Shown one piece after another: positions 42,337-56,544 of a stretch of 57,804 bases of DNA. The first letter of the stretch is position 1. The number at the start of each line of letters is the position of its first letter. The notes beneath the pieces were generated by a model. It was not told where the DNA came from and made no database searches. It saw only the letters and a list, made by a program, of their open reading frames with translations. Made by a program: the position numbers and the translations under genes. The DNA comes from Thioclava dalianensis (lineage in GTDB: Bacteria > Pseudomonadota > Alphaproteobacteria > Rhodobacterales > Rhodobacteraceae), in contig NZ_JHEH01000020.1 of assembly GCF_000715505.1 (NCBI RefSeq), positions 1 through 57,804 on the forward strand, given 5' to 3'.

Positions 42337-43713
42337 TCAAACGAGCCCGTCGGCCTCTTCGGTCACCACGAGCTGCACGTTAAACTCAGGCGGCAACGGA
42401 TCGGGACGGATGATGCTCAACGCCTCAGTCTTCAGGTCGCGCACGCCACGGATATATAGCCCAGGCATGCCGCCGGGATAGTCGATCAATCCTATAATCC
42501 GCCCCTGCGCATCATAGCACCAGCCGCCCACCCGTCCGGCATTGCCATCGCCCAGCGGAAAGCGGTCGAAGCGGTCGGCCTCTGTCGGGCGAAGGTCATA
42601 TTTCGCAGCGGTTCCCAATACCCCGCGGACCTGCTCGAGCGTCACTCGGCGAAGGGTTAGATCGGAAATTCCGTCGGCGCGCGCGGAAACGAAGCACAAC
42701 GCGCCCTCCATTTTTCCGTGGACATCCTCGATCACAACGCCGCGCACAGATCCGGCCGGGCCTTCCTCCGGGCGACGGTCGATCACCGTGATGGTCACCG
42801 CTTCGCCCGATCCCCAGAAGCCTTCGGGCGTCTCGTGGCAGTCCAGCGTGATCTGGGCAAAGCGAATATCTTCGACCACGCCACCATCGCGCGACAGGAT
42901 TCCCAACCCGCGGTTCGACTTCTCGATATCCACCCGCTCGCAGGTGATGCGCCGAAAGGCCGAAAAGCTCTCGGTGCCCAGCTTTATGGCGCAGGATCGG
43001 CTTTCGATCACGCAGTCGCGGATAATCACATCCTCGCACGGCCCAGTCAGCGTACCATCTTCGCGCCGGGTCGTCTTGAGTACGATCCCGTCATCGGCCG
43101 TGCGGAACACGCTGTTGGTGATCTCCACGTCACGGCATCCATCGATGACAATACCATCGGTATTCGGCATGCGCCGGTCGTTATCGACGGAAAGGCCGTG
43201 CACCCGGATCCTAGTGCAGGCCGCAAAATGCATTGTCCACATCGGGGCGTCTTCGATATGAAGCCCCTCGATACGAATGTTTTCGCACGCATCGAACACC
43301 ACGACGCGCGGTCGATAGCGCACGGCGCGACGCGTGCCCATCTGGACATCTTCTCCCTGCACGTACTGGGTGCTACCCGCGCCGAAAATCTGCCCTCCCC
43401 CGACCAGCGCAATGTTGCGCGCATCGGCGGCGCACAGCATGGCCCGGTCGCTTTCCTCGGCTACGATTGCAACTTTGGTGCCGGCATATTGATCATAGCC
43501 CGGCAGAAAATGCAGTTCCGCACCGGCCAAGATCTCCAGCGTCACATCCGAGCGCAGCCGCAGCCCGGCGGCGCGGTGGAGGCCCGGCTCCAGCACCAGA
43601 TGCAGTGGCGCATCATCGTGGTCGAGCAACGCCTGAACCCGCTCTGTAATGGGCGCATCATCTGCGGCGATCCGGACCTGTCGGACAACGTCCCTTTCCA
43701 TCGCGCCTACCAT
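42337..43713 (-). CDS. GH28-like beta-helix glycosidase without signal peptide
   Basis: Right-handed beta-helix protein of 458 residues related to polygalacturonases. The catalytic-region motifs are PNTDGI (183-188, Asp186) and TADDGI (206-211, Asp207-Asp208). Where classical enzymes have G-H-G and R-I-K, this protein has CAIKLGTES (241-249). There is no signal peptide (MVGAMERDVVRQVRIAADD), so it acts in the cytoplasm, presumably on an imported uronate-containing glycoside. I start at ATG 43713, which overlaps the preceding stop as TGATG. It is the second gene after the UxuA-like dehydratase. The activity is inferred, and a non-galacturonide substrate is possible. Confidence 0.75.
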   Translation of the reverse strand: MVGAMERDVVRQVRIAADDAPITERVQALLDHDDAPLHLVLEPGLHRAAGLRLRSDVTLEILAGAELHFLPGYDQYAGTKVAIVAEESDRAMLCAADARNIALVGGGQIFGAGSTQYVQGEDVQMGTRRAVRYRPRVVVFDACENIRIEGLHIEDAPMWTMHFAACTRIRVHGLSVDNDRRMPNTDGIVIDGCRDVEITNSVFRTADDGIVLKTTRREDGTLTGPCEDVIIRDCVIESRSCAIKLGTESFSAFRRITCERVDIEKSNRGLGILSRDGGVVEDIRFAQITLDCHETPEGFWGSGEAVTITVIDRRPEEGPAGSVRGVVIEDVHGKMEGALCFVSARADGISDLTLRRVTLEQVRGVLGTAAKYDLRPTEADRFDRFPLGDGNAGRVGGWCYDAQGRIIGLIDYPGGMPGLYIRGVRDLKTEALSIIRPDPLPPEFNVQLVVTEEADGLV

Positions 43714-44681
43714 CAGCGTGTCTGCAGCAAAGCGGCGATATAGCCATAGCAATAGGAGAAGGCCACCTGTTGCTGGTTCTCGCCCGAAAGGGTGGGCATG
43801 TGATCAGGCATCACCATGTATTTATACGCGGTTTCGCGAAGCACATCTATCACTGCCGGCATGTCGACATCGCCCTCTTCGGGAAAACTCTCGCGGAAAC
43901 TATAACGCTTGCCGACGATATTGCGGAAATGGATGTTCATCAGCTTGCCGCGTTCGCCAAACCAACGCGTGACGTCGGGCACCTCCCGAACGTCCTCCAG
44001 CATCTCGGCCAACGTCCCGATGCAGAAGTTAAGCCCGTGTATCGGACTTTCATGCAGGCTCACAAAGCGCTTCATGCCTTCAACAGTACCCAGAACCCGC
44101 GTCACTCCCATGTAGCCGGGCGGGGTCGCCGGGTCATGAGGATGACAGGCCAGCCGGACCTGAGCCGTCTCGGCAACCGGCACAACACGGGCGAGGAAAT
44201 AGCCGATGCGCTCCCAGATCTCGTCTTCCTCCAGAACGCCCACGCCCTCGGGAGCAGGGGCCTGAAGATCGGCCAGATCGGTGCGCCAGGCTTCAGAGCT
44301 ATAGCCTCCCCGGCCCGGTTCCATCGGCGTGCGTGGAATGCCGATGTAATTGAAGTTGTAACGTACTGCCGGAATCCCCGCCGCGCCGCAATTTTCAATC
44401 AGGCGGCAAATGCCGTCGATCTGCTTGTCGCGATCCGGCCCGGCCAGCAGGATTTCGGGGCAGGGGACATCGTGATCGACCCGGCGTGAAGGCATCGGCA
44501 GTTGGGTCATGTCCAGCACCAACCCGAAACTTTCAATCTTTTCGCGGAAAGCTTCGAGCAGAGGGCGATCCCAGCCGCGCCAATCACCCTCGGGCGTGGC
44601 CGAAACATGGGTGACCCCCAACTGACGCATAACCCGGTAGTCGTCGTCGTGGCGCGCGGGCAGTTGTGTCCCAAGATACAT
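43713..44681 (-). CDS. UxuA-like mannonate dehydratase family protein (short form)
   Basis: TIM-barrel protein of 322 residues, about 80 shorter than UxuA at 2432. It keeps family metal and acid segments: RYNFNYIGIPRTPMEPG, RLACHPHDPATPPGYMG, LNFCIGTLAEML, NIHFRNI and MVMPDHMPTL. ATG 44681 has ATAGGAGAATCGCCG in front. The gene is coupled to the GH28-like gene and divergent from the AGE isomerase. Differences from UxuA (R-P-D-H-G becomes M-P-D-H-M, D-D becomes H-D) suggest another aldonate or a different reaction, so I do not give it the symbol uxuA. Confidence 0.75.
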   Translation of the reverse strand: MYLGTQLPARHDDDYRVMRQLGVTHVSATPEGDWRGWDRPLLEAFREKIESFGLVLDMTQLPMPSRRVDHDVPCPEILLAGPDRDKQIDGICRLIENCGAAGIPAVRYNFNYIGIPRTPMEPGRGGYSSEAWRTDLADLQAPAPEGVGVLEEDEIWERIGYFLARVVPVAETAQVRLACHPHDPATPPGYMGVTRVLGTVEGMKRFVSLHESPIHGLNFCIGTLAEMLEDVREVPDVTRWFGERGKLMNIHFRNIVGKRYSFRESFPEEGDVDMPAVIDVLRETAYKYMVMPDHMPTLSGENQQQVAFSYCYGYIAALLQTR

Positions 44682-44739
44682 CGGCGATTCTCCTATGCGG
44701 GCGGGCCTGCGACCCTCGTGTATAACTTCTTGTTCTACG

Positions 44740-44750
44740 TTGTATGATAA
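44740..44750. promoter_or_regulatory. TnGTATGAyA box upstream of the UxuA-like gene
   Basis: TTGTATGATAA, 59 nt before the start at 44681 and followed by ATTGTCAAG (TTGACA on the minus strand, a possible -35). It fits the FadR-subfamily GntR consensus usually written TNGTNNNACNA. Probable site for the regulator at 52648. Confidence 0.55.
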
Positions 44751-44873
44751 ATTGTCAAGGCGGCGCACGAATTTGCCGTCAAAACGGCGGCAACTGGTCA
44801 TTCTGCTTTTTCTCTTCAAAACAAACGTGCAACTGAGGCAGGGTCAGTAAAAAGCGGACATTGCAACCGAAAT

Positions 44874-44884
44874 TTGTATGATAT
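44874..44884. promoter_or_regulatory. TnGTATGAyA box upstream of the AGE gene
   Basis: TTGTATGATAT, 65 nt before the ATG at 44949. It overlaps a likely -10 (TATAAG at 44884-44889, 17 nt after TTGCAA at 44861-44866), so binding would block this promoter. Confidence 0.55.
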
Positions 44885-55481: not shown

Positions 55482-55520
55482 GATTGCGTCTCCTGAGTAA
55501 TGGCAGTTTTGTCTGACTAT

Positions 55521-55531
55521 TTGTACGACAT
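55521..55531. promoter_or_regulatory. TnGTATGAyA box upstream of kdgD-gci
   Basis: TTGTACGACAT, followed by GTCAAGAC, 40 nt before the kdgD start. The reverse strand gives TTGACATGTCGTACAA, so it may cover the -35 region. Confidence 0.55.
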
Positions 55532-55705
55532 GTCAAGACAGCGCAGCTCCCCCGGACGTGAAGCCCCGCAACACGGACAATCCGGCCCATTTCCGCAAAG
55601 CTCGATTATTCAGTTAAAAATACATAGATACAGGCATTCAACACTGCGGTTGGTGACGAAAAGTGAGAATTTGGATCACGACAAAACATTGACAGCGACG
55701 AAAAT

Positions 55706-55716
55706 AAGTATGACAG
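55706..55716. promoter_or_regulatory. TnGTATGAyA box at the udh promoter
   Basis: AAGTATGACAG, 25 nt before the udh ATG and just downstream of TTGACA (55689-55694). It overlaps the expected -10 region, a typical repressor position. Confidence 0.5.
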
Positions 55717-55740
55717 GATTCTGTAAAGAGGAGATCCACT

Positions 55741-56544
55741 ATGACACTGAACCGATTGCTGATCACCGGGGCCGCAGGGGCGCTAGGGCGTGCACTGCGT
55801 CCGCGCTTGTGCGGCTTGGCGAATGAAGTGCGACTTAGTGATCTCGCCGATGTCATTGATCTCACCGAACACGAACACTTCGTTCCTTGCGATCTCGCCG
55901 ATCACGCGGCGGTGGTTGATCTGGTTCAAGGCTGCGATGGAATTCTGCATCTCGGGGGTATTTCGGTCGAGAAAAGCTTCGACGCTATCCTCGAGGCGAA
56001 TATCCGTGGGGTCTTCAATATATATGACGCTGCACACAAGGCTGGTCAGCCGCGCATCCTGTTTGCCAGCTCCAATCACACGATCGGCTTTTACCCGCCG
56101 GGCCAGACCCTTCAGCCCGATGTCCCCTTGCGTCCCGACAGCCTGTACGGCGTGTCGAAATGCTACGGCGAGGCACTGGCGCGAATGTATTATGATAAAT
56201 ACAATCAAGAGACTGCGATTGTTCGGATTGGCTCATGTTTCCCGGAGCCTGACAGTCGCCGCATGCTGTCCACATGGCTTTCTTATGATGACTTGGCGTC
56301 CCTCGTGCGACGGGTGTTCGCCGTCCGGGATCTGGGCTGCCCGGTGATCTGGGGCGTTTCGAACAATGACGGCGTGTGGTGGGACAACACGCCGTCCGAG
56401 GCGTTGGGCTGGAAGCCGCGCGACAACGCAGCGCGCTTTCGTGCCAAGGTCGAAGCGCGACTGCCGCATCCCGACCCGGAGGCTCCCGATACGCGCTTTC
56501 AAGGTGGCGGCCATGCCGTCAAACCGGTCCGTGCCCACGACTGA
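55741..56544 (+). CDS. udh: Uronate dehydrogenase (NAD-dependent)
   Basis: Extended short-chain dehydrogenase of 267 residues oxidising D-galacturonate or D-glucuronate to the corresponding aldarolactone with NAD. The dinucleotide motif is TGAAGALGR (9-17), LHLGGISVEKSF is the family signature, and the catalytic set is Ser110/111 (FASSNHTIGF), Tyr136 and Lys140 (YGVSKCYGE). RIGSCFPEPDSRRMLSTWLS also matches the Agrobacterium Udh as I remember it. GAGGAGATCCACT precedes the ATG. It is divergent from kdgD-gci; the product lactone feeds Gci. Confidence 0.93.
   Translation: MTLNRLLITGAAGALGRALRPRLCGLANEVRLSDLADVIDLTEHEHFVPCDLADHAAVVDLVQGCDGILHLGGISVEKSFDAILEANIRGVFNIYDAAHKAGQPRILFASSNHTIGFYPPGQTLQPDVPLRPDSLYGVSKCYGEALARMYYDKYNQETAIVRIGSCFPEPDSRRMLSTWLSYDDLASLVRRVFAVRDLGCPVIWGVSNNDGVWWDNTPSEALGWKPRDNAARFRAKVEARLPHPDPEAPDTRFQGGGHAVKPVRAHD

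Follow-up and report, generated by a model that had tools for sequence, protein, structure and literature searches.

Positions 42337-56544 of contig 20 of the Thioclava dalianensis assembly (4.18 Mb in 98 contigs) probably form an oligogalacturonide catabolic island, in which a short protein resembling the mannonate dehydratase UxuA would work as an aldarate dehydratase in parallel with the galactarolactone cycloisomerase Gci, both ahead of the 5-dehydro-4-deoxyglucarate dehydratase KdgD. The whole contig, 57,804 bp, was analyzed and is called the window. This reading draws on gene context and order, the pairing of the UxuA-like gene with KdgD, conserved residues, and a structure model; every reaction and substrate in it is inferred. 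The locus is conserved and of a known type, that of oligogalacturonide use, and one of its enzymes probably has a new function. We also lean slightly towards a broader proposal: that the short UxuA-like proteins constitute a new family of aldarate dehydratases with the UxuA fold, acting on galactarate or D-glucarate and taking the place of Gci, GudD, and GarD across various Alphaproteobacteria; the GH28-linked and Opp-linked branches would each prefer a different aldarate, a parallel to the relationship between GarD and UxaA.

A conserved gene set around GH28

Twelve intact open reading frames (ORFs) were recognized in the locus from the ORF list and from domain and profile searches, and every gene named in an earlier interpretation made from the letters alone (the sequence-only reading) was found in its place. 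A minus-strand run leads from the solute-binding protein of a CUT1 importer (50143-51501, domain match) through two permeases (49120-50121 and 48268-49107, both named from the annotation of relatives) and a UgpC-type ABC ATPase (47127-48245; NF008653, 462.1 bits against a cut-off of 432) to an SMP-30/SGL lactonase (46250-47122; SGL domain PF08450, E 2e-58), putatively a UxuL-like aldarolactonase. The plus-strand gene of an AGE-family sugar isomerase (44949-46196) separates this run from two further minus-strand genes, that of the UxuA-like protein (43713-44681), proposed here to be a metal-dependent aldarate dehydratase, and that of a GH28 protein (42337-43713), a candidate PglB-like polygalacturonase. 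The GH28 ORF is listed to 43752, but its probable start at 43713 overlaps the end of the UxuA-like gene.

This neighborhood was compared with 15 GH28 loci (58-66% identity), consisting of five plasmid records and ten of the 14 loci from a scan of genome contigs. The stretches compared covered about 10 kb on either side of GH28, less at contig ends, and genes were detected at E 1e-8. Weak matches (L002-L004) and the window's own copies (L001 and L005) were excluded from the counts; L061 and L037 were not counted either, as repeats of L013 and L020 with identical proteins (L061 lies in the genome of L013). A UxuA-like gene, 77-83% identical, stood directly before GH28 in all 15 loci. The complete order of solute-binding protein, permease, permease, ATPase, SMP-30, UxuA-like protein, and GH28, which is that of the window minus AGE, was observed in ten (L006, L007, L008, L011, L012, L013, L014, L015, L020, and L021). 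The other five (L009, L010, L016, L017, and L024) carried KdgD and CUT1 genes downstream; uronate dehydrogenase (Udh) was found in four of these (L016 being the exception), as well as in L014. R. paknamense (L017) and C. lividus (L024) shared the order UxuA-GH28-Udh-GntR-KdgD-ABC-SMP30, and no Gci was detected at E 1e-90 in the whole genome of either. SMP-30 was present in 12 of the 15 loci, while AGE and Gci were detected in none. Importer, lactonase, UxuA-like protein, and GH28 are a real conserved set; of the loci compared, only the window has AGE and a linked Gci. The gene set that the sequence-only reading had put forward for comparison with other genomes was thus recovered in part. Four loci with more distant GH28 proteins (51-52% identity; L018, L019, L022, and L023) had no UxuA-like gene within the stretch examined.

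Pairing of the UxuA-like gene with KdgD

Genomes with a UxuA-like gene were collected at E 1e-60: 25 among 297 genomes of the family of A. rosae (Rhizobiaceae), and six, including that of the window, among 390 genomes of the window's order. Adding the genomes of L014, L016, L017, and L024, which were picked for their GH28 loci, gave a set of 35. Of the 14 contig-scan loci, L013, L014, L016, L017, and L024 belong to this set, as does L020 (as G1036) and probably L022 (as G1011). KdgD was found in 33 of the 35 genomes (E 1e-70) and a Gci orthologue in 14 (E 1e-90).

Where KdgD was present and Gci absent, KdgD lay within 10 kb of the UxuA-like gene in 17 of 19 genomes, in 14 of them within 4.4 kb and in three at about 7.3 kb; these last three KdgD proteins showed only 48-52% identity. 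The two exceptions were G1078 and G691, the latter with contigs of 9.3 and 6.8 kb on which linkage cannot be judged. Among the 14 genomes with Gci, KdgD came within 10 kb of the UxuA-like gene in a single case, the window itself (9.9 kb), and by coordinates it adjoined Gci in all 14. A Fisher test of this pairing gave 2e-6, or 3e-7 without the window, both uncorrected for kinship; in the UxuA-like tree the KdgD-linked rows are spread over several clades. GudD (TIGR03247) exceeded its cut-off in three of the 35 genomes, G841 (without KdgD), G929, and G836 (both with Gci), and in none of the 19 in which KdgD occurs and Gci does not. GarD (TIGR03248) exceeded its cut-off in none of the 35. In 17 genomes KdgD is thus close by and Gci is lacking, as are GudD and GarD over their cut-offs; of the enzymes sought genome-wide, this leaves the UxuA-like protein as the linked candidate for producing the KdgD substrate.

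More distant homologues (61-63% identity) in Phyllobacterium, Terrarubrum, Sinorhizobium, and Rhizobium occur in the order Opp-type importer, GntR, UxuA-like gene, KdgD. In the four annotated Opp-type loci no Udh was found near this pair, and no other sugar-acid dehydratase was annotated beside KdgD. Two further annotated homologues had no KdgD in the stretch. In G012, a member of the window's genus, three TRAP-like ORFs (recognized by eye) occur with Udh, KdgD, Gci, and an ORF that by eye resembles an amidohydrolase-type galactarolactone isomerase (L073); the UxuA-like gene of this genome is on a different contig from that cluster.

Family, metal site, and fold of the UxuA-like protein

The UxuA-like protein, 322 residues long from the start shared with its relatives (44681), matched PF03786 at E 1e-37. 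It scored below the cut-offs for mannonate dehydratase (TIGR00695, 71 against 199.55 bits; PRK03906, 110.6 against 191 bits) and shares 25% identity with the UxuA of the same strain, the lengths as called being 322 and 422 residues. H180, C220, H251, D293, and H294 were invariant in alignments A4 and A6 and aligned with 3ban; the first four correspond to what we take to be the metal ligands (His, Cys, His, Asp) of mannonate dehydratase. A structure model (mean predicted local distance difference test, pLDDT, 88.6) showed the UxuA-type TIM-barrel fold, with 3ban, a mannonate dehydratase, as the best Foldseek match in the PDB (template modeling, TM, score 0.84). From these residues and the model, the protein is likely a metal-dependent sugar-acid dehydratase, whose specificity may differ from that of UxuA.

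A true UxuA (2432-3700; TIGR00695, 475 bits, above the cut-off of 199.55) is encoded elsewhere in the window, in a reductive glucuronate set at 82-8844, about 40 kb from the locus. The set includes a GntR regulator, a TRAP importer, and UxaC (7435-8844, over cut-off), together with KdgK-like (82-1053) and UxuB-like (972-2435) genes named from best matches, at 219.2 bits against a curated cut-off of 400 and 395.5 bits against one of 603. One window therewith carries genes of both uronate routes, the reductive and the oxidative. The presence of this separate set is an argument against a role in mannonate metabolism for the UxuA-like protein.

Proposed pathway and its alternatives

The proposed order of reactions is as follows: the CUT1 importer would bring short galacturonate oligomers into the cell, where the GH28 protein, apparently signal-less and of PglB type, would free D-galacturonate in the cytoplasm, and Udh would oxidize this to the aldaro-1,5-lactone. 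Along one route, Gci would act directly on the lactone to give 5-keto-4-deoxyglucarate. Along the other, the SMP-30 lactonase would open the lactone to the aldarate, which the UxuA-like protein, as an aldarate dehydratase, would convert to the same product. KdgD would then form 2-oxoglutarate semialdehyde, on which an aldehyde dehydrogenase encoded outside the locus would act to complete the route.

The three oxidative genes are present together in the locus: Udh (55741-56544, plus strand, divergent from KdgD) matched the solved uronate dehydrogenase 3rft at E 4e-103; KdgD (54579-55481, minus strand) has a DHDPS domain and exceeded its curated cut-off (TIGR03249, 412.5 bits against 373.95); and the Gci-like protein (53402-54604, minus strand, probable start near 54541), of the enolase superfamily, matched 4ggb/4hpn at E 1e-176. 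The database entry names that molecule uncharacterized; we take it to be the Gci of Agrobacterium. The GH28 protein matched PF00295 at E 6e-17 (62.1 bits, cut-off 22.9), and its nearest NCBIfam model, over the full length, was polygalacturonase PglB (NF051861), at 576.4 bits just below the cut-off of 600. N185-D187 and D208-D209, presumably the catalytic residues of GH28 (the NTD and DD motifs), were invariant in alignment A1; no signal peptide was apparent by eye, and the enzyme would be an exo-type polygalacturonase. Import of a uronate oligosaccharide, its cytoplasmic cleavage, and use of the Udh-Gci-KdgD route, as the sequence-only reading had suggested, are supported by this gene content and by the conserved neighborhood.

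The semialdehyde dehydrogenase that would end the route is absent from 42337-56544, as had been noted earlier, and is probably supplied in trans. Two candidates for the missing step were found in the window's genome with an aldehyde dehydrogenase encoded beside the UxuA-like gene in L035 as query, to which they are 82% and 68% identical; the query itself scored far under the cut-offs of the semialdehyde dehydrogenase models. The 68% relative adjoins an ORF that by eye resembles a dehydratase of a pentose-acid pathway (L076), and that pathway also ends in 2-oxoglutarate semialdehyde.

The substrate of the UxuA-like protein can be approached by stereochemical reasoning of our own. Read from C6, D-glucarate shares the C2-C4 configuration of D-mannonate, and galactarate resembles D-altronate; GarD is a relative of the altronate dehydratase UxaA. 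The branches of the UxuA-like tree may differ in their aldarate preference.

A number of observations weigh against the proposed pathway. The stereochemistry favors D-glucarate for a relative of UxuA, but this is not a sugar acid that a polygalacturonase would yield, and galactarate is what the GH28 context suggests. The window keeps Gci, and the UxuA-like protein is thus not needed there for galacturonate. The top PDB profile match of the GH28 protein is named a pectate lyase (5olp), the next being an exo-poly-alpha-D-galacturonosidase. Among the best 60 of 152 matches to the binding protein, the nearest solved relatives bind maltose or other neutral oligosaccharides, and the relatives gave no clue to the substrate. 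SMP-30 was not seen in L009, L010, and L016, two of whose three stretches end just past the ATPase. In the Rhizobiaceae sample, KdgD was within 10 kb at 12 of 26 UxuA-like places and not at the other 14. GarD-family matches at about half the cut-off score occurred in 32 of the 35 genomes, 17 of them among the 19 in which KdgD occurs and Gci does not; we provisionally take these for altronate dehydratases. Finally, the genome-wide searches covered Gci and GudD among the enolase-superfamily enzymes, and another dehydratase gene of that superfamily lies 9.4 kb from the UxuA-like gene in L033.

Three other explanations were weighed. The sequence-only reading had envisaged a second branch, in which AGE, as an aldose-ketose isomerase, would convert a second sugar of the GH28 product and the UxuA-like protein, working like a mannonate dehydratase, would then yield 2-keto-3-deoxygluconate. 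AGE does adjoin the UxuA-like gene in the window and recurs near it in L031 and L035. We nevertheless consider this branch very unlikely: AGE was not detected within the stretches compared in any of the 15 other GH28 loci, in each of which the UxuA-like gene is present; the UxuA-like gene pairs with KdgD, in genomes without Gci; its product falls under the mannonate dehydratase cut-offs; and the locus has no UxuB-type reductase, while true UxuA is already encoded beside UxuB-, UxaC-, and KdgK-like genes at 82-8844.

Alternatively, the UxuA-like protein could act directly on the aldarolactone rather than on the free aldarate, as a convergent counterpart of Gci, whose place beside KdgD it occupies. 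The Opp-type loci, with their UxuA-like gene and KdgD and no Udh nearby, and the SMP-30 lactonase of most GH28 loci speak against this possibility, which we rate as unlikely. The protein might also be an aldarate or uronate epimerase or isomerase that feeds another dehydratase, given that xylose-isomerase-like barrels include epimerases; sugar 3-epimerases such as UlaE indeed followed the mannonate dehydratases among the Foldseek matches. Mannonate dehydratases with the same metal residues matched best by far, however, and KdgD has no other annotated sugar-acid dehydratase beside it in the four annotated loci to be fed in this way. An epimerase or isomerase is therefore improbable, and an aldarate dehydratase remains the preferred assignment.

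Relation to known systems

No described locus with the same gene set was found in the literature searched, nor, judged by titles and abstract openings, any assignment of a UxuA-family protein as an aldarate dehydratase. For the nearest known system, that of Agrobacterium C58, we presume the gene-by-gene assignment of the names Udh, Gci, and KdgD within atu3135-3143. This galacturonate locus begins with the TRAP importer GaaPQM, followed by the oxidative enzymes, and the same strain has the polygalacturonases PglA (Atu3129) and PglB (Atu4560) (PMC6683767). As far as the available parts of that paper go, C58 and the window have in common the oxidative route with Udh, Gci, and KdgD and a PglB-type GH28 protein. 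Import is by TRAP in C58 but by CUT1 in the window, the portions available mention no UxuA-like protein or AGE for C58, and the PglB gene of C58, judged by locus number only, is not near the galacturonate genes, whereas GH28 is within the locus in the window. The cluster of G012 is arranged much like atu3135-3143 as described in those same parts (PMC6683767).

An oxidative variant with the lactonases UxuL and UxuF (Bouvier et al. 2018, as reported in PMC6353982 and PMC13264449; related, PMC9007349) likewise proceeds from Udh through a lactonase to the aldarate; the accessible portions of these sources mention no UxuA-family dehydratase. With mannonate dehydratase UxuA itself, the window's protein shares fold and metal-site residues, but it is shorter, diverges in identity and profile scores as given above, and has KdgD rather than UxuB as its gene partner. 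TogMNAB is an importer of oligogalacturonides. CUT1-type import beside pectin genes is common to that system and the window, but the nearest solved proteins of the window's binding protein, within the same best 60 of 152 matches, are of maltose type and similar.

If the proposed function is correct, the mannonate dehydratase annotation that such proteins now carry in rhizobia, agrobacteria, and Rhodobacterales is wrong, and a sequence can be given to a missing dehydratase of oxidative uronate and aldarate catabolism. Metabolic models of plant-associated bacteria would then need revision, and aldarate conversion would gain a new enzyme.

Remaining genes and minor observations

GH28 is rare near the host, since at E 1e-60 it was matched in none of the other 384 genomes of a 385-genome class sample (only the window's own was found), and 41 relatives yielded three other GH28 matches, all weak (28-32% identity). 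In the UxuA-like tree, the window sits next to GH28 loci of Rhizobiaceae (support 94/90, not starred). Horizontal transfer from a Rhizobiaceae-like source is the likely origin. Measured in 3-kb steps, the guanine-plus-cytosine fraction ranged from 0.58 to 0.62 between 42001 and 57000 and from 0.60 to 0.66 elsewhere in the window. In Martelella, GH28 relatives (51-52%; L018:6746-9844 and L022:6728-9847) are divergent from a large ORF that by eye is alpha-mannosidase-like, with a LacI-type regulator nearby and no adjoining UxuA-like gene.

Between the importer and Gci, a GntR/FadR-type regulator (52648-53355, plus strand) with GntR/FCD domains was found by domain and profile matches; it was absent from the gene list of the sequence-only reading. 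The AGE protein (PF07221, E 3e-98) belongs to the ManI/YihS group and scored 323.6 bits against a cut-off of 600 for D-mannose isomerase (NF051846). Of 244 genomes sampled from the host's order, 51 have AGE (E 1e-90), and its best plasmid-borne relatives were in Paracoccus and other Rhodobacterales. Six annotated relatives had varied contexts, beside CUT1 genes in four (L062, L064, L065, and L066), with LacI also beside three of those, which suggests a general sugar isomerase. Within the window's order, AGE was near the UxuA-like gene in three of the six genomes with the latter (window, L031, and L035), a small sample in which the contig of L032 is only 9.3 kb long. At L031:2624-3784 and L035:17116-18372, AGE comes after the operon of an Opp-type importer, next to the UxuA-like gene; two AGE proteins shared 54% identity on alignment.

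The motif TGTAYGAY, a possible operator and a pattern picked after being seen, occurs at 44741, 44875, 51566, 52453, and 55522, in four promoter regions of the locus, with two of these occurrences between the UxuA-like gene and AGE; the window holds ten occurrences against 1.66 expected. As many shared degenerate 8-mers across the four regions arose in 13 of 200 shuffles, and the motif was upstream of genes in three of the 13 relative loci tested (L009, L017, and L028). On these two results we do not claim a shared operator or co-regulation of AGE.

Directly 3' of the UxuA-like gene, four loci carry an IolB-like gene annotated as 5-deoxy-glucuronate isomerase (L027:4492-5322, L055:10044-10874, L058:10311-11141, and L060:10079-10909), which at 153.6 bits is below the cut-off of 205; three of these four have the 48-52% KdgD about 7.3 kb away. 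In A. tumefaciens 1D1108 (L069:4883-9626), a UxuA-family protein 37% identical to that of the window is encoded between an annotated L-arabinonate dehydratase and an NADP aldehyde dehydrogenase, which is another non-mannonate context for the UxuA family.

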